From positions 62,001 to 126,000 of the forward strand of contig JAFYHS010000006.1 in the NCBI GenBank assembly GCA_017539045.1: 64,000 nt of DNA. The letters run 5' to 3'. Below, one piece after another: positions 31,447 to 45,537 of this stretch. Position 1 is the first letter of the stretch. Each line of letters opens with the position of its first letter. Under the pieces are notes generated by a model. That model had not been told where the DNA came from. It did no database searches and was given only the letters and a program-made list of their open reading frames with translations. This stretch comes from Bacteroidales bacterium. Its GTDB lineage: Bacteria; Bacteroidota; Bacteroidia; Bacteroidales; F082. A program made the position numbers and the translations under genes.

Positions 31447-31563
31447 TACCCGACAGCCCACGACCGCTTCCTCTGCATCGACGACACGGTATATCATATC
31501 GGCGCCTCGCTGAAGGACTTGGGAAAGAAATGGTTTGCTTTTAGTCGGATGGAGGTGGGGGGG
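31447..31563 (+). pseudogene. Fragment of a protein with a PLD-like HxR(x4)D motif (ORF6N/RhuM-type C-terminus?)
   Basis: A run of about 35 codons reads AHDRFLCIDDTVYHIGASLK then DLGKKWFAFSRMEVG. HDRFLCID followed by GAS six residues after the next Asp is like the HKD box of phospholipase D-type folds. I recall similar C-terminal stretches in ORF6N/RhuM-like proteins of Bacteroidetes. It has no matching upstream part and runs into unrelated sequence (GGQMGCGRKRDGHRRKN), so it is a remnant. Frame and codon use look host-like. The parent gene is uncertain, and a fresh search would be needed to name it. Confidence 0.5.
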
Positions 31564-31669
31564 CAGATGGGTTGCGGGAGAAAACGTGATGGGCATAGAA
31601 GAAAAAACTTTCCATAAAACAGCAAGAGAAAGAAAAAACATGTCGCGAATCAGAAAAACGGAGAAATAG

Positions 31670-31702
31670 TTTGCTTCGATTATCGAAAAACTCGTATATT
31701 TG
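31670..31702 (+). promoter_or_regulatory. Promoter of the defence operon with central palindrome
   Basis: TTTG (31670-31673) and TATATTTG (31695-31702), 21 bases apart, fit the Bacteroidetes -33/-7 pattern. The transcript would start just before the ATG at 31726. The perfect palindrome TTCGATTATCGAA (31675-31687) sits between the two boxes, exactly where a repressor, or a methylase acting as its own regulator, could bind. No other promoter is seen inside the seven-gene operon. Confidence 0.65.
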
Positions 31703-31725
31703 CAGATTAATATGGTATATTGGCG

Positions 31726-32787
31726 ATGAAAGCATGTAATAATCAGAAATTCAAAGCAATAGACTTCTTCTGCGGAGGAGGCGGGATGACGTGTGGATTG
31801 CGGCAAGCAGGGATTGATGTGATTGCTGGGGTGGATTTTGACGGGAATGCAAAGGAGACGTACGAATATAATAATCCTGGCAGTATTTTTATTTACAAGG
31901 ATATCAAGAACCTTTGGAGCAACTATTTTGAAAGGAACTTTGGCGTTTCAAAATATGATGACAACTTGATTATGGTGGGTTGCAGCCCATGCCAATATTA
32001 TAGCATTATCAATACCGACCATAGCGGAGCAGAAACTTCAAGAGGGCTTTTGATCAATTTTGCCCGGTTTATTGAATACTACAAACCTGGGTATATCTTG
32101 GTTGAAAATGTCCCTGGAATTGTCACGAATAAAGAAACCGTTTTATACCGTTTTCTGGAGAAACTAAACGCTTTGGGGTACAAAAACATGGTGAAAGAAA
32201 TTGTCGATATGAGACAATACGGAGTTCCGCAAAGCCGTCGGAGGTTTTCACTCATTGCTACCCGATTGGAAGGCGTAAGAGTTGCTTTGCCCAAAAAGTC
32301 AGAAAGAGTCTTAACCGTGGCGGATGTGTTAGGGGAAAAGAATGGCTTCCAGAAAATAAAGGCGGGTCATAAAGACACTACTGACTTCCAACACACTGTG
32401 GCTGGATTAAGTGAGGTAAGTTTAAAACGCATGGCGATGACGCCTCATAATGGCGGCAATCGCTTGAGTTGGGCAAACCAACTCGAATTACAACTTGATT
32501 GTTACATCGGGAAAGACGATATATTCAAAGACAATTATGGCCGAATGTGGTGGGATAAACCTTCGCCGACAATAACAACCAAGTTTTTCAGCATTTCTAA
32601 CGGGCGTTTCGCTCACCCCGATGAAGACAGGGCCATTTCCATCCGAGAAGGAGCCACTTTGCAATCCTTCCCGAAAGACTACGTTTTCAAAACCAATAGT
32701 ATCGCTGGCGCAGCTCGAATTATTGGTAATGCTGTTCCTTGCGAGTATGCGAGAAGATTAGGTGAAACGATAATATCTAATTCTTGA
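31726..32787 (+). CDS. DNA (cytosine-5) methyltransferase 1 of the defence operon
   Basis: A 353-residue C5-cytosine DNA methyltransferase. Motif I is AIDFFCGGGGMTCGL, motif IV GCSPCQYYS with catalytic Cys89, motif VI VENVPGI, motif VIII QSRRRFSLI, motif IX in the region of SIREGATLQSFP, motif X IIGNAVPCEY. All catalytic motifs are intact; the target-recognition region (about 190-300) gives no hint of the target. ATG at 31726 is chosen over the upstream TTG. It is AT-rich and the first gene behind the operon promoter. The MORC-like gene follows 5 bases later, a pairing known from comparative studies of MORC-type systems. Confidence 0.93.
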   Translation: MKACNNQKFKAIDFFCGGGGMTCGLRQAGIDVIAGVDFDGNAKETYEYNNPGSIFIYKDIKNLWSNYFERNFGVSKYDDNLIMVGCSPCQYYSIINTDHSGAETSRGLLINFARFIEYYKPGYILVENVPGIVTNKETVLYRFLEKLNALGYKNMVKEIVDMRQYGVPQSRRRFSLIATRLEGVRVALPKKSERVLTVADVLGEKNGFQKIKAGHKDTTDFQHTVAGLSEVSLKRMAMTPHNGGNRLSWANQLELQLDCYIGKDDIFKDNYGRMWWDKPSPTITTKFFSISNGRFAHPDEDRAISIREGATLQSFPKDYVFKTNSIAGAARIIGNAVPCEYARRLGETIISNS

Positions 32788-32792
32788 TTGTT

Positions 32793-34445
32793 ATGCCAGA
32801 AAACACAAAGGAAGAACAAAAACTCATGATGAGTTTTGACCCTCAAACCATAGAGCATTTGGGCGTCAAAATGTATTCACAATTGCCTAATGCTATCGCA
32901 GAGTTAATAGCAAATAGCTATGATGCGGAATCACCAGAGGTACATATCATCCTTACGGACAACGAAAATGAAAAAAGTATTGCAGTTGTTGATAAAGGTG
33001 TGGGTATGACATTTGATGAAATCAATGATAGCTTTTTGCGGATAGGGCGGAAAAGAAGAGAATCCGACAATGGATATAGTCCTAATGGGTTAAGAAAAGT
33101 TACTGGCCGAAAAGGATTAGGAAAATTGGCATTCTTTGGTATAGGTGACACCATACAAATAATCACAAAGAAAAACGGAAACTGTGTAATCTTTACAATG
33201 AATTGGGATGATATTATCCATTCTCAAACTCCTAATTATGAGCCCGAGTTTACACAAAGCCCATGTGACGTTCAAGAACAAGGGACAACTATCATACTTA
33301 CAAACCTTAAGCGAAAAACTGCTTTTGATGTTGAAGAATTAGCAAATAGTCTTGCTCGATTATTTGATTTCTTTGATGATAATTTTGTTGCAGATATAAC
33401 ATTAAATAATGGCAAACCTATTCTTATTGATAAATCACTGAGATATAAAAATATAGATGCTCAATTCAAATGGGAGATACCCGATTTTATTAAAGACGTT
33501 GAGCATTATATTCACCAAAAGCATGTGACTGGAGAGTTATTAGCAACCGAAAAACCATTAAAACCAGGACTACGAGGAATAACATTGTATGCTCACGGAA
33601 GAATGGTTAATGCGCCAGAATTCTTTGGAGTGGGTGAATCTAGTCACTTTTATTCATATTTGACTGGTTGGTTAGATGTGGATTTCGTTGATGAACAAGA
33701 AGATGATATTATCTCAACAGACAGGCAGTCTCTAAGTTGGGATTTGCCAATGACTTCTGAACTGCGAGACAATTTGAAACTATTGCTTACTTCAATAGAA
33801 CGTAATTGGCGTGAGAAAAGAAAAACGGAACGTGAACGAAAAATAACAGAAAAGACAAAAGTAGATGTTGGCCAATGGTATCCAACATTAACACCAGATA
33901 TTCAAAAAGGAGTTGAAAAGATTGTAAGTTCTGTGGTTGAAAATTCCGAATTAGAAGAGGATAAACAAAGTGAAGTTATTGGAGCCTTGCACACTCTTAT
34001 TCCCGAATATGCACAATATCATTGGCGGCGTTTGCACAAGACCGTGCAAGATGCTTCTTATGATGACTATAAAAAAGAAGATTTTTATCGTGCTGTGGAA
34101 GAAGCAATAAAAAGATTTGAATCAGTTACAAAAACCAAATCTGGTAATAACCAGACAGGACGGGATTTGATGGCACAGGTTTTTGGTAAAGATAAGTGCC
34201 TTTCTGTTACATCAAAATACAAAAAAAGAGATGGGAGTGACTTCGGTTCTGACACTCAAGAAAACATAGAAGAAGGACAAAAATTTATGTCCATGGGTAT
34301 GATGGCAGGCGTTAGGAATCCGTTGGCTCATGAAGAAAAAATTGAGTTGAAAGAGACGGGGTTGTTTTCCGAAAATGATTGCCTTGATATTTTAAGCTTA
34401 TTATCACATTTGTGCAGAAGATTAGATGATGCAGTTAAAAAGTAA
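32793..34445 (+). CDS. MORC-like GHKL ATPase with C-terminal HEPN/Ymh-type domain
   Basis: A 550-residue protein. The N-terminal Bergerat ATPase fold has N box AIAELIANSYDA (Glu37, Asn41, Asp44), DKGVGM (Asp67, Gly69, Gly71) and GRKGLGKLA (about 105-113), typical of MORC/MutL-type ATPases known beside bacterial C5 methylases. An S5-like middle part follows, then a charged region. The last 120 residues look like the TIGR02391/Ymh family, with MAGVRNPLAHEE giving R508-N509-x3-H513, the RNxxxH signature of HEPN ribonucleases. ATPase gating of an RNase or nuclease is my inference. The most AT-rich gene of the operon; its end overlaps methyltransferase 2 by 20 bases. Confidence 0.82.
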   Translation: MPENTKEEQKLMMSFDPQTIEHLGVKMYSQLPNAIAELIANSYDAESPEVHIILTDNENEKSIAVVDKGVGMTFDEINDSFLRIGRKRRESDNGYSPNGLRKVTGRKGLGKLAFFGIGDTIQIITKKNGNCVIFTMNWDDIIHSQTPNYEPEFTQSPCDVQEQGTTIILTNLKRKTAFDVEELANSLARLFDFFDDNFVADITLNNGKPILIDKSLRYKNIDAQFKWEIPDFIKDVEHYIHQKHVTGELLATEKPLKPGLRGITLYAHGRMVNAPEFFGVGESSHFYSYLTGWLDVDFVDEQEDDIISTDRQSLSWDLPMTSELRDNLKLLLTSIERNWREKRKTERERKITEKTKVDVGQWYPTLTPDIQKGVEKIVSSVVENSELEEDKQSEVIGALHTLIPEYAQYHWRRLHKTVQDASYDDYKKEDFYRAVEEAIKRFESVTKTKSGNNQTGRDLMAQVFGKDKCLSVTSKYKKRDGSDFGSDTQENIEEGQKFMSMGMMAGVRNPLAHEEKIELKETGLFSENDCLDILSLLSHLCRRLDDAVKK

Positions 34446-35589
34446 ATATGGCGTGAAGAAGTTAAATTCTCAACATAGAATGGTTGACCTCTTTGCTGGT
34501 TGTGGAGGCCTCAGTTTAGGTTTGGAGCAAGCAGGGTTTATGCCGTGGTTTGTCAACGAAATTGTTGAACAGTTCGCGAACACATACAAATTCAACCATA
34601 AGCTTGCAGACGATCATTATTACATTGGTGACATTGCTGTGCTCAATGAACATCTGTATGAATACGAAGAAATGTTCAAAGATATTACCCTTGTATGTGG
34701 CGGACCTCCTTGTCAAGGATTCTCTATGGCCAATAGACAAAGGATTCTTGATGACCCTCGAAATAATCTGTATAAGCAGTATTTGATTTTCTTAAGCATA
34801 GTACGTCCTAAATTCTTCATCATGGAGAATGTGAAGGGTATGATGAATAAAAAGGATGAAATCATACAAAACTTCAAAGAATATCTTGGGGAAGAGTATT
34901 TATTTGATTACGATGTGCTTAAAGCCCAAGATTATGGTGTTCCTCAAAACAGAGAGCGTTTTATTATGATTGGCAATCGCATAGGTGTCCAGCCCAAAGA
35001 GATCTTTGAAGAAGTGTATCGCCACAAACGTGAACCTTTTGTATTGCGCGACGCATTATATGGACTTCCTCATTTAGAAGCAAAGAAAGACAAAGGGCAA
35101 AGTGGTGTTGAGGACGCTCAATCCGGTTTTACTGAATGCGATTTTGAATATCCGAAGACCAAATTCTATTATTTCATAAATGGTAATAGGGTCATAACAA
35201 AGCTATACAACCATAAAAACAGGTATAATAACGAAAGAGACATCGAGATTTTTAGGCGACTTCCTCAAGGAGCAAATTCTCTTCATGAATCTATTGCCGA
35301 TATTATGCCCTATAAGAGACGTAACGACATCTTTAAGGACAAATATTTTAAATTAGACGAAACACAAATTTGCAAGACCATTACTTCTCACATGAAGTTT
35401 GATTGCAACATGTATATTCATCCATGGGAAGCAAGAGGGCTGAGCCCAAGAGAGGCTGCTCGTATACAAACCTTCCCTGATGACTTCGTTTTTACAGGAG
35501 CGCAGAATATGTGGTACGCCCAAGTTGGAAATGCGGTACCGGTTAAACTTGCAAAGGCCATAGGAGACGGCATAATGAAATTTGTATGA
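34426..35589 (+). CDS. DNA (cytosine-5) methyltransferase 2 of the defence operon
   Basis: A 387-residue C5-cytosine DNA methyltransferase. Motifs: I MVDLFAGCGGLSLGLEQAGF, IV GGPPCQGFS (catalytic Cys96), VI IMENVKGM, VIII PQNRERFIMIG, IX SPREAARIQTFPDDF, X QVGNAVPVKLA. The long stretch between VIII and IX (about 200-330) is the target-recognition domain. It overlaps the MORC gene by 20 bases and methyltransferase 3 by 4 bases (ATGA), a tight translational coupling. AT-rich like its neighbours. In LlaJI-type systems two C5 methylases each modify one strand of an asymmetric site; genes 2 and 3 are candidates for such a pair. Confidence 0.95.
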   Translation: MMQLKSKYGVKKLNSQHRMVDLFAGCGGLSLGLEQAGFMPWFVNEIVEQFANTYKFNHKLADDHYYIGDIAVLNEHLYEYEEMFKDITLVCGGPPCQGFSMANRQRILDDPRNNLYKQYLIFLSIVRPKFFIMENVKGMMNKKDEIIQNFKEYLGEEYLFDYDVLKAQDYGVPQNRERFIMIGNRIGVQPKEIFEEVYRHKREPFVLRDALYGLPHLEAKKDKGQSGVEDAQSGFTECDFEYPKTKFYYFINGNRVITKLYNHKNRYNNERDIEIFRRLPQGANSLHESIADIMPYKRRNDIFKDKYFKLDETQICKTITSHMKFDCNMYIHPWEARGLSPREAARIQTFPDDFVFTGAQNMWYAQVGNAVPVKLAKAIGDGIMKFV

Positions 35590-36650
35590 ATCACGTAGAA
35601 CTTTTTGCTGGTATAGGTGGTTTTAGAAGGGCCATGGATTTAATTTCTCATGACCTTAGTATTCCTATTGATACAATCGCTTTTTCCGAGATTGACAAAA
35701 CGGCAATTAGCACCTACAAAGCAAATTATGATACTGATGGCGAATTTCCGATGGGAGATATCGTAGATTTTGTGAAGAACAAAAAATGGATGAAACAATT
35801 CCCTAAATATGAGATTCTTTCAGGAGGGTTTCCGTGTCAAACGTTTAGTATGATGGGAAGCCAAGAAGGATTTGAGGAAGAAAGAGGACAAATGTTTTTC
35901 CGAATCATGGATATGGTAAATAGTAGACATCCACGCTATGTTCTCTTGGAGAATGTCAAGAACTTAAAGAATCATGATAAGGGAAACACAATTGCTGTTA
36001 TAAAAAGCGAATTGGAGAATGCTGGGTACATTGTAAAAATGGATGTTTTCAACTCGAATGATTTTGGCCTACCACAAAAACGCAATAGGGTTATTATTTT
36101 TGCAAGAAGAAAGTACTTAGGCCGTTTTGATTTCACGTCGGATCTTGTTAAAGCCTCTTTTAGTCAAATGGATAGAAGCAAATGTTCGCTGCATTTCTAC
36201 AATTCGACCATTGATTTGCTTGACAGAGATGTTGATAAGAAATACTACCTTTCAGAAAAAATAAAACCGACAATATTAAGTGATGGCAGTTCTGGTTTTA
36301 AATCAAAATCGGAAATTGACCAGATTATTGCTCGGCCATTAACTGCCACCATGCACAAAATGCATCGCGCTTGTCAAGATAACTATTATAGTGATTTGTT
36401 TATTCAATCAAAGGGAAAAGATAAACCAGCAGAGAGAATGAGCAAAGAGGAATTGGCTAAGATAGCGATTCGAAAACTGACACCTAAAGAAGCTTTCATG
36501 ATTCAAGGATTTGGGCCTGACTTTGCGACAAAGGCTGAAGAAGCAGGTGTCCCAGATGGAGCAATGTATAAACAAGCTGGCAATGCCGTTAGCGTGAATA
36601 CTATATATGCAGTGATGTATTATTTGATTACAAAAAAAATACTTTCATAA
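35586..36650 (+). CDS. DNA (cytosine-5) methyltransferase 3 of the defence operon
   Basis: A 354-residue C5-cytosine DNA methyltransferase. Motif I is HVELFAGIGGFRRAM, IV GGFPCQTFS (catalytic Cys84), VI LLENVKNL, VIII LPQKRNRVIIFA, IX TPKEAFMIQGFG, X QAGNAVSVNTIY. All motifs are present, though motif X has Val-Ser in place of the usual Val-Pro. The recognition part lies at about 170-300. It starts inside the stop of methyltransferase 2 (ATGA overlap), and the McrB-like gene begins one base after its stop. AT-rich. Likely partner of methyltransferase 2 in protecting the same recognition site; this is an inference from the arrangement. Confidence 0.94.
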   Translation: MNHVELFAGIGGFRRAMDLISHDLSIPIDTIAFSEIDKTAISTYKANYDTDGEFPMGDIVDFVKNKKWMKQFPKYEILSGGFPCQTFSMMGSQEGFEEERGQMFFRIMDMVNSRHPRYVLLENVKNLKNHDKGNTIAVIKSELENAGYIVKMDVFNSNDFGLPQKRNRVIIFARRKYLGRFDFTSDLVKASFSQMDRSKCSLHFYNSTIDLLDRDVDKKYYLSEKIKPTILSDGSSGFKSKSEIDQIIARPLTATMHKMHRACQDNYYSDLFIQSKGKDKPAERMSKEELAKIAIRKLTPKEAFMIQGFGPDFATKAEEAGVPDGAMYKQAGNAVSVNTIYAVMYYLITKKILS

Positions 36651-36651
36651 T

Positions 36652-38679
36652 ATGATTACCAAACGCATTCACTCCCAAGACGCACACTACAAGCTTTCTC
36701 CAAAGAACTCTGGAGAAACAAGTCTTAATCTTTCAAATGAGATATTGCAACTGATTGCACCAACATTAACGAAAGGTTCAGAAACACCTATCTCATTTAC
36801 ACTTTATAGAGCAGATTATTTAAAAGCACTTGGGGCAATCGTCAACTGTTCACCTCTATACATTACGACTTCCTCTTCTTCAACGGTAGTTAGCTCTGAC
36901 CCAAATGTGTTTATTAAAGACTTTCAAGCTATTTGCTCATTTTTTGGGCCAAATGAGAAAAAAACATATTCTGTAAATCTAATTTATCGGAATGACGGAC
37001 GTATTTATCTAAATGCTTTAGAAGACAAGAGCAGCAAGTTTAATATACGTCATTTCTTGCTCGAAGAAAGATCCGTTTTAGAGTTTTACAAAGATGATAA
37101 TTCTGTTACTATTAGATTAAAACTTGATTCGTCCGAGGATGATGTTTCATCACAAAAAAATGTAACCGAACTCATTTTTAGCGAAAAGAATCTTACTTCA
37201 TTCGTCTTGTCTGTAATTCAATATGTTAACAAAATAGATGGATTAGATGCTATTGTTCCTTATGCAAGCTCTACTTCACCAATCAAGGTAAGCAAAAGAA
37301 GCACCTTTAAATTAACAGGGATGTTTTTAGAATCCACCTTAGATGATGTAAAGGCAAGAAATCTTAGTCATACGAGATGGTTTGAAGACCAATTTACACT
37401 GGGAGAACGAAATGTATTCCTAAGCACTCAATGGAATGCAAATGGAGATTACCAACTGACACTTGATGATTTTATCAAGATGATTCAATGTTGCTACGGG
37501 ACTAATTACCTATACAAAACAGGCCCCAATGGAGAGCATCAATTATACCTTGTTTCCAAAAAAGCCAATAATGATTTGAAAGGATACCCTCTCCAGCAAA
37601 TCTTCTACGGCGCCCCAGGTACAGGCAAATCCCATAGAATCAAGGAAATTATCCGAGAAAACGGCATTGACGAGAAGAAACAAGTCATCCGCACCACCTT
37701 CCATCCCGATAGCGACTATTCCACTTTTGTGGGTTGCTATAAACCTATCATGAAGTCCGTGCTGCAAACCTACGTGGTGGAGGGCAACGAGAAACCCGTG
37801 ATGGCTGACAAAGATAACCAAGCCACCAAAGAGGAAATCGTTTACGACTACACGCCACAAGCCTTTGTGCAAGCCTATACCAAGGCATGGACTACGAACA
37901 AGCCTGTCATCCTTGTCATCGAGGAAATCAACCGTGGCAACTGCGCCCAAATCTTCGGCGACATCTTCCAACTCTTAGACAGAGGCGATGACGGCGTTTC
38001 AGAGTATGAAATCAAACCCGACAAAGCCTTGGAAAACTATCTGAGGGAGTATTTCGCCACTTTCGAGGATGTGGACGAACAAATAAAGAGCGGAAAAATA
38101 ATGAAGTTGCCTTCCAACCTCTACATCTGGGCCACCATGAACACCAGTGACCAAAGCCTCTTCCCCATCGATTCGGCTTTCAAGCGCAGATGGGAGTGGA
38201 AGTATATCAAGATTGCCTGGCCTTACAAGAAAAACGAAGACGGCTCCTTCAAAACGGACGAAAACGGAGAGAAGGTTCACTTCAATTACTCGATTGAAGG
38301 CGATCACGACTGGTGGAAGTTCCTGCAACAAATCAACGCCATCATCGACAAAATGACCAATTCGGCCGACAAGCAGTTGGGCTATTTCTTTGCCAAAGCA
38401 AAGGATGGCATCATTTCTTACGATACCTTCGTTTCGAAAGTCTGCTTCTACCTCTGGAACGACATCTTCAAGACCTACGCCCTCGACGAACAGCAAGGCG
38501 ACTTGTTCAAATTCGCGAAGAAAATCAAAGACAAGGACGAAAACGAGAAGGAAGTCATAGGTCATCTCTCTTTCCCCGAATTCTATGATGGTGACGGAAA
38601 TGTTGTGCCAGACGTGGCAAGGCAGTTCATAGAACATGTGATGGCTTGGAACACGGAAGGCAAGAAAGAGAATAGTTGA
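36652..38679 (+). CDS. McrB-like AAA+ NTPase (R1.LlaJI-type restriction subunit)
   Basis: A 675-residue AAA+ protein of the McrB branch, which usually hydrolyses GTP and drives DNA translocation for a partner nuclease. Walker A is GAPGTGKS (320-327), Walker B VILVIEEINRG. MNTSDQS corresponds to the McrB guanine-discriminating NTxD motif, and FKRRWEW carries the sensor-2/arginine finger. Residues 1-310 have no recognised domain and probably bind DNA. Base composition changes near 37588 (about residue 312): the N-terminal part is AT-rich like the methylases, the AAA+ part is GC-rich like the host. In McrB and R1.LlaJI the N-terminus decides target recognition. Confidence 0.9.
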   Translation: MITKRIHSQDAHYKLSPKNSGETSLNLSNEILQLIAPTLTKGSETPISFTLYRADYLKALGAIVNCSPLYITTSSSSTVVSSDPNVFIKDFQAICSFFGPNEKKTYSVNLIYRNDGRIYLNALEDKSSKFNIRHFLLEERSVLEFYKDDNSVTIRLKLDSSEDDVSSQKNVTELIFSEKNLTSFVLSVIQYVNKIDGLDAIVPYASSTSPIKVSKRSTFKLTGMFLESTLDDVKARNLSHTRWFEDQFTLGERNVFLSTQWNANGDYQLTLDDFIKMIQCCYGTNYLYKTGPNGEHQLYLVSKKANNDLKGYPLQQIFYGAPGTGKSHRIKEIIRENGIDEKKQVIRTTFHPDSDYSTFVGCYKPIMKSVLQTYVVEGNEKPVMADKDNQATKEEIVYDYTPQAFVQAYTKAWTTNKPVILVIEEINRGNCAQIFGDIFQLLDRGDDGVSEYEIKPDKALENYLREYFATFEDVDEQIKSGKIMKLPSNLYIWATMNTSDQSLFPIDSAFKRRWEWKYIKIAWPYKKNEDGSFKTDENGEKVHFNYSIEGDHDWWKFLQQINAIIDKMTNSADKQLGYFFAKAKDGIISYDTFVSKVCFYLWNDIFKTYALDEQQGDLFKFAKKIKDKDENEKEVIGHLSFPEFYDGDGNVVPDVARQFIEHVMAWNTEGKKENS

Positions 38680-38687
38680 TTGGCATT

Positions 38688-39854
38688 ATGGGCAAAGCGG
38701 TAACCATACAAGACAAGGAGTATCTGGAGTGGATAAAAGATTTAGGCACCCGCTTCCGCCGGAGTCAAATCAAGGCTGCGGTGAAGGTGAACGAGGAAAT
38801 GCTCCGTTTCTATTGGGAGTTAGGCCATGACATCGTGGAAAGAGATGCCGAGAACCACTATGGTAGCCGGTTCTTCTCTATATTGAGCCATGATTTGAAA
38901 GAGGCAACATCCATGACATCAGGTCTGTCGGAGAGAAACATCCGATATGCCAAAGATTTTTATTTACTTTATAGTCAAGAAGTTGGAATTTTGCAGCAAC
39001 CTGCTGCAAAATCTGACCTTGAGGATGTTACCAAAGACGAGGAAAAATTGCAGCAACCTGCTGCAAAATCCAATGATACAATTCTGCCTCAACTTGTGGA
39101 GCAAATCAAAAGTGAAATATTCTCCGTCCCGTGGGGGCACCACATGTTGCTCATTGACAAATGCAAAAACGCTCCGCAAAAAGCACTATTCTTTGTCCAT
39201 CAGACCATGCAAAACGGTTGGAGCCGCAACATGCTGCTCAACTTCCTTGACACCGACCTCTACGAACGGCAGGGCAAGGCGTTGACCAATTTCAGTCGCA
39301 CTTTACCAGATGAGACGAGCGACCTGGCGCAAGAATTGACAAAAGACCCGTACGACTTTGCCTTTACTGGCATCACCGGTAAATACAACGAACGGTTGTT
39401 GAAAGACAAACTGCTCAACAACATCACACAATTCTTGGTAGAATTAGGCACAGGCTTCGCTTATGTGGGCAAGGAATACCGCTTGCAGATAGGCGACACG
39501 GAGAACTTCATCGACCTACTTTTCTACAATTTGAACTTGTCGTGCTACGTAGTGATTGAGGTGAAAATTGGCAAGTTTGAGTTTGCCGATGCTGGACAAC
39601 TCGGAGGGTATGTCGTGGCATGCAACCACATATTGAAGAAAGAAGGACGTGACAATCCCACTATCGGCATCTTGATTTGCAAGGAGAAAGATAGCCTTGT
39701 GGCACAATATGCACTGGAAGCCAGCAGTCAGCCTTTAGGCATTTCGGAGTACGAACTGGCCAAACTCTATCCAGAGAAAGTGGAAGGAACCATCCCTACC
39801 ATTGAAGAAATAGAACAGAATTTGGGCAACAGAATCAAAAACGACGAGGACTAA
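38688..39854 (+). CDS. DUF1016 / YhcG-type PD-(D/E)XK nuclease-fold protein
   Basis: A 388-residue DUF1016 protein. The N-terminal DUF1016-N helical domain (LGTRFRRSQIKAAVKVNEEMLRFYWELGHDI, GLSERNIRYAKDFY) probably binds DNA. The C-terminal PD-(D/E)XK-like core shows FIDLLFYN, then VVIEVKIGKFEFADAGQLGGY, with Asp and Glu-x-Lys in order. Such proteins lie in mobile and restriction loci with unsettled function. ATG at 38688 is used; a TTG at 38676 overlaps the McrB-like stop. It interrupts the usual McrB-then-nuclease order and is host-like in composition. It contains two copies of the palindrome TTGCAGCAACCTGCTGCAA, each encoding LQQPAAK. Confidence 0.85.
   Translation: MGKAVTIQDKEYLEWIKDLGTRFRRSQIKAAVKVNEEMLRFYWELGHDIVERDAENHYGSRFFSILSHDLKEATSMTSGLSERNIRYAKDFYLLYSQEVGILQQPAAKSDLEDVTKDEEKLQQPAAKSNDTILPQLVEQIKSEIFSVPWGHHMLLIDKCKNAPQKALFFVHQTMQNGWSRNMLLNFLDTDLYERQGKALTNFSRTLPDETSDLAQELTKDPYDFAFTGITGKYNERLLKDKLLNNITQFLVELGTGFAYVGKEYRLQIGDTENFIDLLFYNLNLSCYVVIEVKIGKFEFADAGQLGGYVVACNHILKKEGRDNPTIGILICKEKDSLVAQYALEASSQPLGISEYELAKLYPEKVEGTIPTIEEIEQNLGNRIKNDED
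38988..39070 (+). repeat. Two palindromic units inside the DUF1016 gene
   Basis: Copy 1 (38988-39012) has perfect 11-base arms ATTTTGCAGCA / TGCTGCAAAAT around ACC. Copy 2 (39048-39066) keeps 8-base arms. Copies start 57 bases (19 codons) apart and both encode LQQPAAK. Confidence 0.8.
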
Positions 39855-42079
39855 TGTATATCATTTTTGAGGAACACCAATATGCTGCCGAAGATGTCAA
39901 AGTAGCGCTACACGGTATCAGTGAGTTGCAAGACATCAACAAAAACGTCAGCGTGAGCTATGTGGGTTATTACTACGAGCCCGCCATACCCGATTGCGTG
40001 TTTATTCTCCCCAAGGTTCTGCTCAACGACAAGGATCAATTGGTGGTTGGCCCCAATACAACTATCGACCCAAAAGAAATCATCACACCTGAAGGACAGC
40101 AGAAACACTTGACCCAAGAATACCGCAAGTTCCTTTACGAGTTTGCTGTATGGATTTATAGGACAATTGCTGTTTACCACCAGCATAAACCCAATTCACA
40201 GGCCATCTATTACCGTCGTCTGCCACGCTCGGGGAAAGGGATGCGGCATCAAGCCAACACTTATCTCGACATCATCCTGTCCCTCATCCAATTCAACCAA
40301 GAGAACCAGGATTTCTTTCTATACACGGTCAAAAACATCCACTCGGGACACAACAAAATCAACTGGACGCGGACCATCTCACAATCAGAAGCCATCCTCC
40401 AAAACGGCACACCTGTTTATCTGGATCCCGTCAACCGCAAACGACAGATCAATTTCGACGAGGAGTTGTTCGTCATCTTCTTCTCCATCCTTGACTATGT
40501 CAACCGCGAGTATGGATTCCGTGCACCCATTAATATGCAATATGAGTTGCTCACTCCGTCGCAGTTTGAGACCTATCGCAAAGGCTACGGCAAGACCAGA
40601 CTGAAGGAAATCCGATACAAATACTTCTCCGACAAGGCGGTGATGCTATGGGAACTCTGCTATGCGTTTTTCGACAACACCTACCTGCTAGCCGTCAACA
40701 CCGAAAACAAGGAATATCTGCTTGCCAAGAAATACAATATCATCTTTGAGGCGATGATAGACGAACTCATAGGCACTTCTCATGACAAAATACCGCCCGG
40801 TTTGGCCGACCAAGACGATGGCAAGCAAGTGGACCACATGTACACTGACTTGGCGCTTACTTCGCCTCAAAACCGAGAAGTGTACTACATCGGCGATTCC
40901 AAGTATTACAAGATGTCGACGGCTCTTGGAAAGCCTTCCGTTTCGAAGCAATACACCTACGCCCGCAATGTGATACAATGGAACATTGACTTGTGGAAAG
41001 ACAATGAAGAAGGGCGACGGATGAAAAGTGAGACCGATAAAAGATACAAAGACATAAGGCTGCGCCCTGATTCGCCCAACGAGGGTTATGACATCATTCC
41101 CAACTTCTTCCTTTCCGCTTTTGTTGACGACCAACCGACCTACGACCGTGGCACTGATACCGAAGGGAACGACTTGAATGTCAAACCTCGTGAAGAGACC
41201 TATATCTCCACCCAATTCGACAATCGCCTCTTCGACCGCGACACCTTATTGTTAATGTATTATGACATCAATTTCCTATTTGTTGTCAGAATGTACGCGC
41301 GAAACAAAGAATCGGAGAAGGCGCAATGGAAAACTCATGTCAGAACCATCTTTAGGAAGAAAATCCAAGAGGTGTTGGCATCCAAATTCCAATTCTATGC
41401 CTTTGCTCCCAAGCCATCCACCTACGCCAAAGGCTATATGGATAAGAACCTGAAGAAACTGATTGGCAAGGTGTTCAGTCCGTTTGCCAACGAAGAGGTT
41501 TTTGTGCTGGCATTGGAGAACACTGAAAACGAACAGGAAAGGCAAAAAAATGAGGCATTGTTATCTGAACTAAAGAAGTATTTCTTTATAACTGAAAAAG
41601 AAGACTATAAATTAGGAGAAGACCCAACACAGAAACTGAAAGAAATGGGCTACACTAGTGGAATGAAGGGTCCTCAACAAAAGAAAGAAGAATTGATGAT
41701 CGTATTCTCCATTGACAAAAAAGTCAATGATTTAGAAGCTTTGATGGAGGGTACGGCTGAAGAATTTCTTTCGGGATACAAGCCCAACTTGATGCAGGAT
41801 TTCTCCCGAATCAAATATCTCGCACCATTTGACAACAAATCTCTTCTTGGGGCATATAAGATTGAATCCATCACATTGACTAATCTGACAGATAATGAAA
41901 ACCCTGTAAGATTACTATTTAAATTAGGGAATTATTACAGATTTAAGCAACCCATTGGTTATATGCTTCCAAGAGCAGCCTCTGCCGGACACTCCCGTTC
42001 ACCAGAGGATTTGGCTCGCTTAATTGGTGACAATACACCTTATCAAACATTTGACTTCCTTTTCGATAAACCTAACTAA
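39854..42079 (+). CDS. LlaJI R2 / McrC-like PD-(D/E)XK restriction nuclease
   Basis: A 741-residue protein that fits the LlaJI R2/DUF2357-type nuclease partner of McrB-like motors. An N-terminal beta-rich region (about 1-190) leads to a helical part and a PD-(D/E)XK core: Glu299 in IIFEAMIDELIG, Asp332 in DHMYTDLAL, then YIGDSKYYK with Asp348 and Lys350. A C-terminal domain of about 180 residues (559-741) follows, with no recognised fold. The base composition switches near 41530 from host-like to AT-rich exactly where that domain begins. It overlaps DUF1016 by one base (TAATG) and ends the operon. Family call is from motif and context; specificity is unknown. Confidence 0.72.
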   Translation: MYIIFEEHQYAAEDVKVALHGISELQDINKNVSVSYVGYYYEPAIPDCVFILPKVLLNDKDQLVVGPNTTIDPKEIITPEGQQKHLTQEYRKFLYEFAVWIYRTIAVYHQHKPNSQAIYYRRLPRSGKGMRHQANTYLDIILSLIQFNQENQDFFLYTVKNIHSGHNKINWTRTISQSEAILQNGTPVYLDPVNRKRQINFDEELFVIFFSILDYVNREYGFRAPINMQYELLTPSQFETYRKGYGKTRLKEIRYKYFSDKAVMLWELCYAFFDNTYLLAVNTENKEYLLAKKYNIIFEAMIDELIGTSHDKIPPGLADQDDGKQVDHMYTDLALTSPQNREVYYIGDSKYYKMSTALGKPSVSKQYTYARNVIQWNIDLWKDNEEGRRMKSETDKRYKDIRLRPDSPNEGYDIIPNFFLSAFVDDQPTYDRGTDTEGNDLNVKPREETYISTQFDNRLFDRDTLLLMYYDINFLFVVRMYARNKESEKAQWKTHVRTIFRKKIQEVLASKFQFYAFAPKPSTYAKGYMDKNLKKLIGKVFSPFANEEVFVLALENTENEQERQKNEALLSELKKYFFITEKEDYKLGEDPTQKLKEMGYTSGMKGPQQKKEELMIVFSIDKKVNDLEALMEGTAEEFLSGYKPNLMQDFSRIKYLAPFDNKSLLGAYKIESITLTNLTDNENPVRLLFKLGNYYRFKQPIGYMLPRAASAGHSRSPEDLARLIGDNTPYQTFDFLFDKPN

Positions 42080-42088
42080 AAACATAAA

Positions 42089-42244
42089 ATGTCCTGCCTC
42101 CAAGTCATCCTAGCTATCATCTTCCCGCCGATGGCGGTATTCGACCGCGGCTGCGGGTCGATGCTCATCGTGCTTCTGCTCACGCTCTGCGGCTGGGTGC
42201 CTGGCGTCATCGCAGCACTCATCATCCTCAACAAGAATAAATAA
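42089..42244 (+). CDS. YqaE/Pmp3 family small membrane protein
   Basis: A 51-residue proteolipid of the UPF0057 family, conserved from bacteria (YqaE) to plants and yeast (Pmp3), where it is stress-induced. It reads MSCLQVILAIIFPPMAVFDR then a second membrane helix ending VPGVIAALIILNKNK. The FPPMAVF motif in the first helix is diagnostic. It begins 10 bases after the last defence gene and ends 12 bases before the phosphatase-dipeptidase fusion. Composition is host-like and GC-rich, so the island boundary lies at about 42080. Two helices are predicted, with both ends on the same side. Confidence 0.9.
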   Translation: MSCLQVILAIIFPPMAVFDRGCGSMLIVLLLTLCGWVPGVIAALIILNKNK

Positions 42245-42256
42245 AACCACCAAAAC

Positions 42257-43657
42257 ATGAAACGACTCAACCTTTTCATCATCGCCGCCATCTTGTTCTA
42301 CGGCAACCTTGCGACTCGAGCACAAGACAACGGCGTCACGCTGTATTTCAGCGCCGAGGAGATGCCTGACCTCATCAAATGCCTGCCCCCGCCGCCCGAC
42401 ACCCTCGGGAACGACTTCGCCAACGACATCATGCACTACATGTGGGGCAAGCAGCAACGCAACGACCCCGAACGCGCCGCCCTCGTCTTCCAAGATGCCG
42501 TGTGGAACCTCGACTCGCTCTTCGCCGTGTTCAAAGTGCCCTTCGGCCTCGAAATCACTAAGGAAGGCACTCCCGAGATCTATAAGCTCTTAGTCAACAG
42601 CCTCTCCACCATCGACGCGACACGCGTCAAGCCGAAGGCTTTCTATCACCGCAAGCGGCCGTTTGAGCGTTTCCACGAGCACATGCTCACAAGATACGAG
42701 GAAGCGGAACTGTCGGGTGAAGGCTCCTACCCCTCTGGCCACAGCCAGCGTGGCTATGCCACCGCCTTGCTGCTCTCCGAGATCAACCCCGACAACGCCG
42801 ACACTATCATGGCGCGTGGCTATATGTACGGCGAGAGCCGTGTCATCGCGGGCGCCCACTGGCAGAGCGACGTCGACGCCAGCCGGCTCTGCGCCGCCAT
42901 CGGCGTGAGCCGACTGCACACCAGCCCAGAGTTTTTGACACAGCTCGAGAAAGCCCGCAACGAGTTCCAATGGCTGACGGGTCAACTGTCGCCCACCGAC
43001 GACGCCAGCCAGTTCGTGAACATCACGGATGTCGTCCCCGACGCCATCTTGGAGATCCGCTACCATAGCACCTATAACTTCGTAGGCACGCGTGTGGATG
43101 GCTATCTTGAACCCGTCGCACTGCTCACCCGTCAGGCCGCCGACAGCCTCCGTGCCGTGAGCGACGATCTGAAACAACAAGGCTACCGCCTCAAAATCTT
43201 CGATGCCTATCGTCCACAGTGTGCCGTCGACCATTTCATGCGCTGGGGTGCCGACGTCAGCGACACGCTCATGAAGTCCTATTTCTATCCCGAAGTGCCT
43301 CGCGACAGCCTCTTCGAACTAGGCTACATCGCCAGGAGAAGCGGCCATACGCGCGGCTCCACCGTCGACCTGACCCTCTTCGATATGGCTACGGAAAAAG
43401 AAGTCGACATGGGCGGCACCTTCGATTGGTTCGGCTTGGAAAGCCATCCAGATTTCGGTGGCAACCCCGAGACAGGAGAATATTTGGGCAACGGCCGCAT
43501 CACCGCCGAGCAATTCCACAACCGTATGATCCTGAGAGAAGCCATGTTGCGCCACGGCTTCAAGGCTATTGACGAGGAATGGTGGCATTTCACCTTGAAA
43601 AACGAGCCGTTCCCCGACACCTATTTCACCTTCCCAGTGAAGCAACTCAGCAAATGA
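42257..43657 (+). CDS. PAP2 acid phosphatase fused to D-Ala-D-Ala dipeptidase (VanX/DdpX type)
   Basis: A 466-residue exported fusion. Signal peptide about 1-22 (LATRAQD). Residues about 80-225 are a class A/PAP2 acid phosphatase: KPKAFYHRKRP (K.x6.RP), YPSGHSQRGYA (about 157-167), SRVIAGAHWQSDVDA (SRx5HxxxD). Residues about 260-466 are a VanX/DdpX D-alanyl-D-alanine dipeptidase (family M15): FDAYRP, SGHTRGSTVDLTL (zinc His and Asp, about 361-373) and EEWWHF (catalytic Glu and third ligand, about 440). All active-site residues of both halves are present. It may act on periplasmic phosphate and peptidoglycan peptides together. No van genes are in view, so glycopeptide resistance is not implied. 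Confidence 0.9.
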   Translation: MKRLNLFIIAAILFYGNLATRAQDNGVTLYFSAEEMPDLIKCLPPPPDTLGNDFANDIMHYMWGKQQRNDPERAALVFQDAVWNLDSLFAVFKVPFGLEITKEGTPEIYKLLVNSLSTIDATRVKPKAFYHRKRPFERFHEHMLTRYEEAELSGEGSYPSGHSQRGYATALLLSEINPDNADTIMARGYMYGESRVIAGAHWQSDVDASRLCAAIGVSRLHTSPEFLTQLEKARNEFQWLTGQLSPTDDASQFVNITDVVPDAILEIRYHSTYNFVGTRVDGYLEPVALLTRQAADSLRAVSDDLKQQGYRLKIFDAYRPQCAVDHFMRWGADVSDTLMKSYFYPEVPRDSLFELGYIARRSGHTRGSTVDLTLFDMATEKEVDMGGTFDWFGLESHPDFGGNPETGEYLGNGRITAEQFHNRMILREAMLRHGFKAIDEEWWHFTLKNEPFPDTYFTFPVKQLSK

Positions 43658-43680
43658 TACGCTGAAACAATACTATTCTG

Positions 43681-44356: not shown

Positions 44357-45028
44357 ATGAGATACAAATTAGTGATATTTGACCTCGACGGCACGCTGCT
44401 CGACACCATCGACGACCTCAAGGAGGCCGTCAACCACGCCATGAGCTTGAGAGGTTTCCCGACCTTTACGCGCGAAGAAGTCATGGCCATGGTCGGGCAT
44501 GGCGCCCGCAACCTGATGCGAAAGGCATTGCCTGATGGGCACAAAGATGACGACATGGTGGATGCAGCCTACAATGACTTCAGGAACTACTACATTAACC
44601 ATATCGACATACATACAAAGCCTTTTGTTGGAATACAAGACCTCTTAACCCAACTGCACCAAGAAGGCGTGATGCTTGCCGTGGCCTCCAACAAATTCCA
44701 AGAAGGCACGGAGCACCTCATCAAGGAGTTCTTTCCCGAGATTCCCTTTGTGACGGTCCTGGGCGGTCGCCCCGACTTCCCCCTCAAGCCCGACCCTGAA
44801 ATCGTCAACGAAGTGCTCCGCAAGGCAAACGTCGAAAAAGAGGATGCCGTTATGGTCGGCGACTCCGACACCGACATGGAAACCGCTACCAACGGCGGCG
44901 TCATGGGCATTGCGGTGAATTGGGGGTATAGAAATATGAGAGAAACGGCCCTTCGACAGGCTCAGGGACCTCAACGCATGAAGGTGGTTGAAACCGCTGA
45001 AGAACTACAACAATCGCTACTGCCATGA
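44357..45028 (+). CDS. HAD family phosphatase (phosphoglycolate phosphatase-like)
   Basis: A 223-residue haloacid dehalogenase-type hydrolase, most like Gph/PgmB phosphatases. Motif I is FDLDGTLLDT (residues 8-17, Asp nucleophile and general acid), motif II is in AVASNKFQ, and motif III/IV is KPDPEIVNEVLRKANV with MVGDSDTDMETA. A helical cap (about 20-85) lies between. Near the C-terminus ALRQAQGP is encoded by a copy of the dispersed GGCCCTTCGACAGG repeat (44946-44970), inserted in frame after RNMRET. Its ATGA stop overlaps the vsr start by 4 bases. The natural substrate is not known. Confidence 0.88.
   Translation: MRYKLVIFDLDGTLLDTIDDLKEAVNHAMSLRGFPTFTREEVMAMVGHGARNLMRKALPDGHKDDDMVDAAYNDFRNYYINHIDIHTKPFVGIQDLLTQLHQEGVMLAVASNKFQEGTEHLIKEFFPEIPFVTVLGGRPDFPLKPDPEIVNEVLRKANVEKEDAVMVGDSDTDMETATNGGVMGIAVNWGYRNMRETALRQAQGPQRMKVVETAEELQQSLLP
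44946..44970 (+). repeat. Dispersed repeat inside the HAD phosphatase gene
   Basis: Same unit as at 10666-10691, read in the same phase (ALRQAQGP). Confidence 0.85.
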
Positions 45029-45537
45029 CTGACAAAATGACTCCCGCTCAGCGGCATTACTGCATGTCGCGCATCCACGGCAAAAGCACCAAGCCCGAGC
45101 TAAAGGTCAGGCAATGGCTGTGGCGGCATGGCTACCGCTATCGCCTCAATGTGAAGAGCGTGCCAGGCAAGCCCGACATCGTCATGCGGCGGTATCGCAC
45201 GGCTATTTTTGTGAATGGGTGTTTTTGGCACGGCCATGATGATTGCGACAAATTCAAAATTCCACAGACAAATCGGGAGTTTTGGGTGAACAAAATCAAG
45301 AGTAATCAAGAGCGCGACAAAAAGAACTATCAAGTGCTGCACGACAACGGCTGGCAGGTTGTCGTCATTTGGGAATGCCAACTGACGCCCAAGCGCATCG
45401 AGGAGACGATGCTCCGCGTGGAACTGATGCTCAACGAGTATTTCTTGGCTTTACACCAACCTAAGGTGGTACCGTACGATTTTCAGGAGACTCCAGCGGC
45501 TATGGCGGCGGAAGAGCTTTCTTCTGGGCAAAAATAA
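45025..45537 (+). CDS. vsr: Very short patch repair endonuclease (Vsr)
   Basis: A 170-residue Vsr endonuclease, which nicks 5' of the T in T:G mismatches arising from deamination of 5-methylcytosine. It starts MTDKMTPAQRHYCMSRIHGKSTKPEL and has the metal and catalytic blocks GKPDIVMRRYRTAIFVNG (catalytic Asp) and CFWHGHDDC (His pair), then VVVIWECQLTP. Length and motif order match the family. It overlaps the HAD phosphatase gene by 4 bases rather than sitting next to a methylase, as usual; the three C5 methylases are about 8-13 kb upstream. It would protect a genome that carries m5C. Confidence 0.94.
   Translation: MTDKMTPAQRHYCMSRIHGKSTKPELKVRQWLWRHGYRYRLNVKSVPGKPDIVMRRYRTAIFVNGCFWHGHDDCDKFKIPQTNREFWVNKIKSNQERDKKNYQVLHDNGWQVVVIWECQLTPKRIEETMLRVELMLNEYFLALHQPKVVPYDFQETPAAMAAEELSSGQK

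Follow-up and report, generated by a model that had tools for sequence, protein, structure and literature searches.

The described systems closest to the locus analysed here include LlaJI and BsuMI. LlaJI combines two C5 methylases with an McrB-like R1 and a PD-(D/E)XK nuclease, R2, in the available passages of PMC1459862, which name BsuMI once. R1 proteins of the LlaJI type have an N-terminal B3 domain for site recognition (PMC7680126 and PMC12707154, in part). Fusions of a Ymh-HEPN domain to paraMORC ATPases occur in restriction–modification operons, and an RNA-cutting role has been proposed for them (PMC3710099, in part). Modules with paraMORC, HEF_HK and Response_reg_2 are described in PMC8011034, the main text of which mentions McrB and LlaJI 0 times each. 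The BbrUII/HgiDII restriction enzymes (NF050001) also have an N-terminal GHKL region, and the target of M.HgiDII is GTCGAC (PMC5867850, in part).

The window, the whole stretch of DNA that we analysed, comprises 64,000 nt from a Bacteroidales bacterium (F082; assembly GCA_017539045.1, contig JAFYHS010000006.1, positions 62,001–126,000 of the forward strand). The host is a gut-type bacterium. Window proteins were scored with Pfam profiles and motifs were located as strings, to which we gave the motif names that we take them to represent. The initial annotation had described a tight run of seven plus-strand genes with intact catalytic motifs and one promoter, and all of this was borne out. The seven ORFs span 31720–42079 without internal stops (Table 1), and the gaps in gene order are −4, −20, −4, +1, −4 and −1 bases. 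String matches were found across the seven proteins: PCQ, ENV and GNAV in the methylases, GAPGTGKS (Walker A), EEINRGN and MNTSD in the McrB-like motor, IEVK in the DUF1016 protein and VDH and DSK in R2. The promoter scan used a consensus that we assume to hold for Bacteroidota. It gave 7 matches across the window versus 0.46 expected, and the one in the operon region is the sole match between 13820 and 48646. A looser pattern added one operon match, inside M2 and 66 bases past its start, and an in-frame ATG at 31726 is an alternative start for M1. Scans for terminators and sigma-70 promoters gave a signal near the shuffled background. The genes form two modules, A (M1 and MORC-HEPN) and B (M2-M3-McrB-(DUF1016)-R2, a LlaJI-like core). 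The locus is a new combination of known kinds.

Table 1. Features of the locus in window coordinates.
Feature	Position	Strand	Assignment and support
Conserved left border	31456–31600	.	Just upstream of the promoter
Exchangeable cassette	~31590–42084	+	Between conserved chromosomal flanks
Promoter match	31670–31703	+	Bacteroidota-type, TTTG-N21-TATATTTGC; consensus scan
M1	31720–32787	+	C5 cytosine methylase, module A; PF00145 173.5 bits
MORC-HEPN	32784–34445	+	MORC/paraMORC GHKL ATPase; HATPase_c_3 83.7 bits; C-terminal Hypoth_Ymh (HEPN) 76.5 bits
M2	34426–35589	+	C5 methylase, module B; PF00145 229.6 bits
M3	35586–36650	+	C5 methylase, module B; PF00145 239.8 bits
McrB	36652–38679	+	McrB-like AAA+ motor, R1 of LlaJI-like core; AAA_5 25.5 bits (cut-off 22)
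DUF1016 (YhcG)	38676–39854	+	PD-(D/E)XK-type domain; YhcG_C 187.8 bits, DUF1016_N 110.3 bits
R2	39854–42079	+	LlaJI-R2-like nuclease; RE_LlaJI 22.8 bits (cut-off 23.6)
Vsr	45025–45537	+	Mismatch endonuclease; TIGR00632 154.6 bits; right flank, outside cassette

Module A resembles the Ymh-paraMORC systems in the available part of PMC3710099 in having a GHKL ATPase with a C-terminal Ymh/HEPN domain, a neighbouring methylase and an intact Rx4H motif. It differs from them in being stacked on a LlaJI-like core, a combination that the available passages do not describe. The N-box and glycine motifs of the MORC protein are intact, and it carries RNPLAH (Rx4H) at residues 511–516, of which R511, P513 and H516 are invariant in 8/8 aligned proteins, the window's among them. 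C5-MORC-HEPN was found at nine loci besides the window and the C5 methylase adjoins in all nine, which supports the earlier suggestion that M1 and MORC-HEPN make up a second layer. Vsr is present at eight of these nine loci, and McrB/R2 was found at none of the nine within the DNA examined per locus. The window MORC protein has the N-terminal GHKL region in common with BbrUII/HgiDII but matches NF050001 only in part (232 bits, below the cut-off of 550) and ends in a Ymh domain. From kinship with BbrUII/HgiDII, GTCGAC would be the predicted specificity of M1. In relatives, the place upstream of a LlaJI-like core is taken by HEF_HK/Response_reg_2 modules, with both families occurring in L099 and L103. 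By contrast, neither HEF_HK nor a receiver partner is among the families of the seven window proteins, and the window protein pairs a single ATPase domain with a HEPN tail and comes without a receiver gene. M1 is 87% identical to the C5 methylase of L103 and 56% identical to that of L121.

Module B has the two C5 methylases, McrB-like R1 and PD-(D/E)XK R2 of LlaJI in the same orientation. The window differs from LlaJI in the third methylase and MORC-HEPN upstream, in the DUF1016 gene between R1 and R2, and in the N-terminal part of R1 (~1–300), which has no sequence match to B3 or another known DNA-binding fold. In L320 this part reappears next to relatives of M2-M3, where another protein carries it. 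A relative of M2 with more than 50% identity occurs at 10 non-redundant R2 loci and an M3 relative adjoins it at all 10; the M3 protein is 100% identical in L094/L124. This co-travel agrees with the previous proposal that M2 and M3 are probably the methylase pair of McrB/R2, and constancy of the pair with McrB/R2 is expected if both methylate one asymmetric site. In the R2 family, 12 of 21 members match the RE_LlaJI profile at E 0.01 or better, and D327, D348 and K350 are invariant in 21/21. DUF1016 lies directly before R2 in 9 of 99 R2 loci, a sample that includes the best 80 of 440, and is an optional insert.

The cassette lies in a conserved chromosomal context. In 6/6 relatives compared, the left border has 86–94% DNA identity over 87–239 aligned bases, ending at 31554–31605; it also occurs in L105, L123 and L128 and is inverted in L126. 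The right flank picks up again at 42084–42089 in five of the six relatives and at 42216 in one, and to the left of the border five relatives have matching genes, L320 (3.4 kb compared) being the exception. Because slot contents differ from those of the window in all six, the slot looks, from these alignments, like a chromosomal hotspot at which relatives bear other such systems. Vsr was rejected as a part of the cassette because it lies within the conserved right flank; L318 and L321, which have different cassettes, likewise carry it in that flank, and the DNA examined in the other four relatives ends before or inside Vsr.

Within the cassette, the modules have been exchanged separately. L124/L094 share 34486–42139 with the window at 91.9% identity, a match from which M1-MORC is entirely absent, and the ATPase module upstream of their core differs from the window's. 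L103 shares M1 (31739–32766) and not MORC. The joint between the modules, a 20-base overlap of MORC-HEPN and M2 (34426–34445), is a breakpoint of DNA similarity. The initial annotation had proposed that all seven genes form one system, and had itself taken recurrence as independent sub-blocks to count against this. A search for the set elsewhere recovered no second locus with MORC-Ymh and McrB/R2, and co-occurrence of the seven genes is rejected. Since each module exists alone elsewhere and the joint is a breakpoint, the claim of unity fails by that criterion. The two layers of that proposal are supported as modules and not as one seven-part system, although stacking of GHKL modules on such cores recurs.

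We consider the best explanation, at a probability of roughly 0.6, to be a stack of two restriction modules that share one transcription unit at a cassette hotspot, with B LlaJI-like and A a second methylation-guided system. Intact motifs, tight spacing, one consensus promoter, the LlaJI precedent (PMC1459862, in part) and the Ymh-paraMORC proposal (PMC3710099, in part) support this, as do the separate recurrence of the modules, the constant M2-M3 pair and the exchange of cassettes in the slot. The score of the window R2 below the RE_LlaJI cut-off (22.8 versus 23.6) and the lack of a sequence match to B3 or another known DNA-binding fold in the McrB N-terminus count against it. By analogy with LlaJI, M2 would mark one strand of an asymmetric site and M3 the other. 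Recognition of the unmarked site may fall to the N-terminal part of McrB, the AAA+ ring would move on DNA and R2 would cut, with DUF1016 a putative accessory nuclease-fold insert. In module A, M1 would mark self, and a GHKL ATPase clamp that meets unmarked or damaged DNA may switch on the HEPN tail, a predicted RNase that would cut RNA and stop the infected cell.

To survey recurrence we used 110 R2 loci (L001, L092–L120 and L122–L201), reduced to 99 by dropping 11 that share the first 400 R2 residues. Of the sampled loci, 80 are the best 80 of 440, so the sample leans toward close relatives; L097 and L107 are pieces of one genome counted separately, McrB is split across two frames in L106 and L147, and gene labels come from profiles built from window proteins and their matches. 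In this sample, which includes the best 80 of 440, a GHKL module lies upstream in the same operon in 19 of 99 loci and downstream in none, with gaps to the core of at most 208 bases. All 18 stacked loci other than the window encode GHKL proteins with a second, kinase-like ATPase domain, the next gene is receiver-like in 11 of them, and HEPN on the GHKL protein occurs in the window only. The core has no GHKL gene in 47 of 59 operons whose 5' end lies within the DNA examined. The GHKL label changes 12 times, at least 10 of them forced by starred branches, on a quick R2 tree of 97 rows (two loci with R2 below 500 aa were left out) in which 32 rows have no GHKL label and three GHKL rows (L106, L108 and L109) carry a long-branch flag. 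The parts are known; the repeated stacking of GHKL modules on LlaJI-like cores is the new point.

This pattern could be read as one coupled two-layer system, in which the GHKL module would keep watch on the LlaJI-like nuclease, or on the DNA that it targets, and turn failed restriction into a response at the level of the cell, through HEPN in the window and through receiver-linked partners in relatives. We regard this as doubtful, even though fixed upstream stacking, small gaps and repeated label changes favour it, as do the 9 of 30 GHKL loci returned for the family that sit in an R2 operon, the more frequent downstream Vsr (9/19 with GHKL versus 7/47 without) and an IMG/VR contig (L279) with McrB-RE_LlaJI and then C5-GHKL. 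Small-gap stacking and receiver-like partners are not explained by two independent systems and hint at coupling. However, MORC-HEPN adjoins McrB/R2 in the window and, within the DNA examined, in none of its nine other loci, GHKL modules elsewhere are also found on their own or next to other sets of genes, and each window module supplies its own methylases. In 6 of the 19 stacked loci no additional C5 methylase lies between GHKL and McrB, which suggests that one methylase may serve both modules there, but this argument for coupling is weak, as 14 of the 47 operons without GHKL likewise have no C5 methylase gene ahead of R2. The promoter test for a single transcript was uninformative in relatives, with the looser consensus in the 300 bases before the module start in only 4/19 loci; its one match no more than 400 bases from the start of the core (1/19) is the window's own, inside M2.

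The modules might instead be accidental neighbours gathered at a defence hotspot, with read-through from one promoter as their sole link. Other cassettes in the slot of all six relatives, mosaic breakpoints and two more R2 loci whose GHKL gene is not part of the operon (in L175 it lies upstream in the same orientation, in L185 on the opposite strand) fit this idea, but the overlap at the joint and the fixed order exceed what we would expect of random stacking, and we think it quite unlikely. That McrB/R2 is a modification-dependent, McrBC-like (type IV) nuclease is very improbable: the motor family matches solved McrB structures (e.g. 6ut5, E 1.9e-23) and the window R2 matches RE_LlaJI weakly, but the conserved adjacent C5 pair would turn self DNA into a target and R2 relatives match RE_LlaJI down to 1.2e-9.

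Two stacked modules remain our preferred reading. A speculative and rather improbable extension is that GHKL (MORC/paraMORC) modules are exchangeable signal or effector heads that couple DNA cutting by LlaJI-like cores to a cell-level response, with a HEPN RNase head and a kinase-receiver head as alternatives on one and the same methylase and core. Natural swaps exist, both as close M1 relatives with HEPN or HEF_HK heads and as near-identical M2-M3-McrB-R2 cores with different heads. If the modules are coupled, restriction systems would come with their own means of escalation, and exchanging heads on a single core would make each step separately testable. If they are not, the locus still shows restriction–modification systems put together in a chromosomal slot as parts are exchanged at the joints between modules.

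The initial annotation described a closely packed seven-gene operon in the window, and this was borne out, all genes being present and intact. Pfam assigned them to three C5 methylases (M1 to M3), a GHKL ATPase with a Hypoth_Ymh domain (MORC-Ymh), an AAA_5/McrB-like motor, DUF1016/YhcG and the R2 nuclease. One promoter match, to the Bacteroidota consensus, ends 16 bases 5' of the TTG start of M1. The window R2 reaches 22.8 bits against RE_LlaJI, below the 23.6 cut-off; 12 of 21 aligned R2 proteins match this profile (best E 1.2e-9), and none of the 21 varies at D327, D348 or K350. M1 and MORC-Ymh form module A. Judged from its sequence, the remainder, module B, is a LlaJI-like core. The individual parts and both sub-layouts are already in print. 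Among the open-access papers listed by our literature searches, no title or abstract opening describes a LlaJI-like core with a GHKL or MORC-HEPN module stacked on it.

The flanking PAP2 protein has a strong match in 60 genomes of the genus, and the six best-matching additional ones were compared. Left border and right flank fall at nearly the same positions (see table), and the slot contents differ from the window's in all six, ranging from 1.1 kb (locus L321) to about 14 kb (L320). Five relatives also match in the genes that lie left of the border; the 3.4 kb examined of L320 has no such match. Because the borders are nearly constant and the contents differ, the window operon is an exchangeable cassette occupying one chromosomal slot. 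The border sequence is common to many cassettes of this slot, resembles a decayed gene end by eye and is present twice in L318. The nearly empty slot of L321 encodes a 253-aa protein that looks HNH nuclease-like by eye.

Coordinates of compared features (L-numbers are loci)
Feature	Locus	Coordinates	Remark
Border sequence	window	31456-31600	
Left border end	window	31554-31605	6/6 relatives
Right flank resumes	window	42084-42089	5/6 relatives
Right flank resumes	window	42216	one relative
Common with L124	window	34486-42139	91.9% identity
Common with L123	window	38110-43669	
Common with L122	window	39037-42248	
Cassette	L320	3981-17499	same border and right flank as window
253-aa protein	L321	6772-7533	
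NOV_C-domain protein gene	L177	5349-6398	
ATPase and ~205-aa protein	L143	887-2655	
McrB, RE_LlaJI, C5-GHKL	L279	263-7016	IMG/VR contig
Receiver-like next gene	L099, L103, L106, L108, L109, L112, L115, L125, L147, L149, L177		

Exchange was also seen at the module joints. In L124 (same locus as L094), M3 is identical to the window's and R2 97% identical; upstream of the common stretch lie an N6/N4 methylase, a GHKL protein with two ATPase domains and a protein of 386 residues. L103 has M1 as its sole module A part in common with the window (87% protein, 81.6% DNA), followed by a HEF_HK protein. L320 contains AIPR, a helicase, M2-M3 relatives (76% and 63% identical) accompanied by a DUF2357-PDDEXK_7 nuclease, and a Schlafen-type protein; R2 profiles found no R2 locus there. 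An 857-residue protein encoded there shares its N-terminal part with McrB (37% identity over 298 residues), and behind this part there are sub-threshold P-loop matches only. The joint presence of the M2-M3 pair and this N-terminus supports the N-terminus as the putative site-recognition part of the motor.

An R2-alignment scan of the species-genome collection confirmed 440 relatives, and the best 80 of 440, genus loci and the window gave 99 non-redundant R2 operons. Relatives placeable by name among the best 80 of 440 are presumably Bacteroidales. In this sample with the best 80 of 440, McrB occurs in 86/99 operons, Vsr lies downstream in 25/99 and DUF1016 immediately 5' of R2 in 9/99, the last label changing four times on the R2 tree. 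M2 relatives of >50% identity occur in 10 other non-redundant R2 loci, each with an M3 relative alongside. In L177 a NOV_C gene separates the M2-M3 pair from McrB; L169, L183 and L192 have genes of similar size, L177 alone being domain-scanned.

Within the same sample, a GHKL gene lies upstream of R2 in the same operon at 19/99 loci (12/59 operons with a visible 5' end) and downstream within the operon at 0/99; in L175 and L185 it is nearby but outside the operon. All 19 modules lie within 208 bases of the core. On the R2 tree (97 rows, 65 of them labelled as with or without a GHKL module) there are 12 changes of this label, and starred branches force at least 10 of them. Shuffled labels gave a mean of about 17 changes, with 3/500 shuffles as low as 12, so the label is somewhat clustered. 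By domain scan, all 18 non-window stacked GHKL proteins end in a histidine-kinase-like HATPase_c; 17 have an N-terminal HATPase_c_3 (L177 is incomplete at its contig start), and L099 and L103 have HEF_HK. The next gene is receiver-like in 11/18, above the curated cut-off in four (L099, L103, L106, L177), and lacks a receiver assignment in the other seven. By the Ymh profile, the window alone among stacked operons has a HEPN head. The module described in PMC8011034 is in part the same as these GHKL/receiver-like modules, and neither McrB nor LlaJI occurs in the main text of that paper. In viral contig L279 the module order is the reverse of the window's: C5-GHKL comes after McrB and an RE_LlaJI that is clear at 138.6 bits. 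L143 has an ATPase (AAA_15/AAA_21, ~360-380 aa) followed by a ~205-aa protein, a gene pair often immediately 5' of methylase-GHKL modules; pairs in L103, L106, L204, L214 and L218 resemble it, judged on size alone.

Near-full-length MORC-Ymh relatives are rare: 2/173 family, 2/393 order and, at E 1e-30 or better, 4/395 phylum genomes, each including the window's. Family, order and phylum genomes, viral contigs and a Neisseria record yielded nine non-window loci (L121, L251, L256, L257, L258, L275, L323-L325), the Neisseria record and similar contig L256 counting as one. A C5 methylase adjoins MORC-Ymh in all nine, with an additional C5 gene upstream in L251. Within the retrieved locus DNA, Vsr is near in eight (exception L257), and profile searches found McrB or R2 beside none of the nine; the co-occurrence of the gene set proposed for checking in the initial annotation does not extend to these loci. 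The Rx4H residues R511, P513 and H516 are invariant in 8/8 aligned proteins. The gonococcal record (L270, Neisseria gonorrhoeae) is filed as a plasmid yet is of chromosome size; there and in L256 the C5-MORC-Ymh-Vsr module has broken methylase and ATPase frames.

Modules, motifs, joints, exchange and recurrence are direct observations. PMC3710099 tables Ymh as a HEPN family and proposes PrrC- and RloC-like action for Ymh fused to paraMORC in the vicinity of R-M genes. Phage defence by a GHKL-nuclease fusion is described for VcSduA from Vibrio cholerae (PMC12137116), whose authors hypothesise that the ATPase controls the nuclease; the family of VcSduA differs from that of the window GHKL protein. 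Module A may sense unmarked or damaged DNA through its ATPase and cut RNA with its HEPN tail, and module B would recognise and cut an unmethylated asymmetric site, as in LlaJI. Coupling of the two modules to each other is possible.
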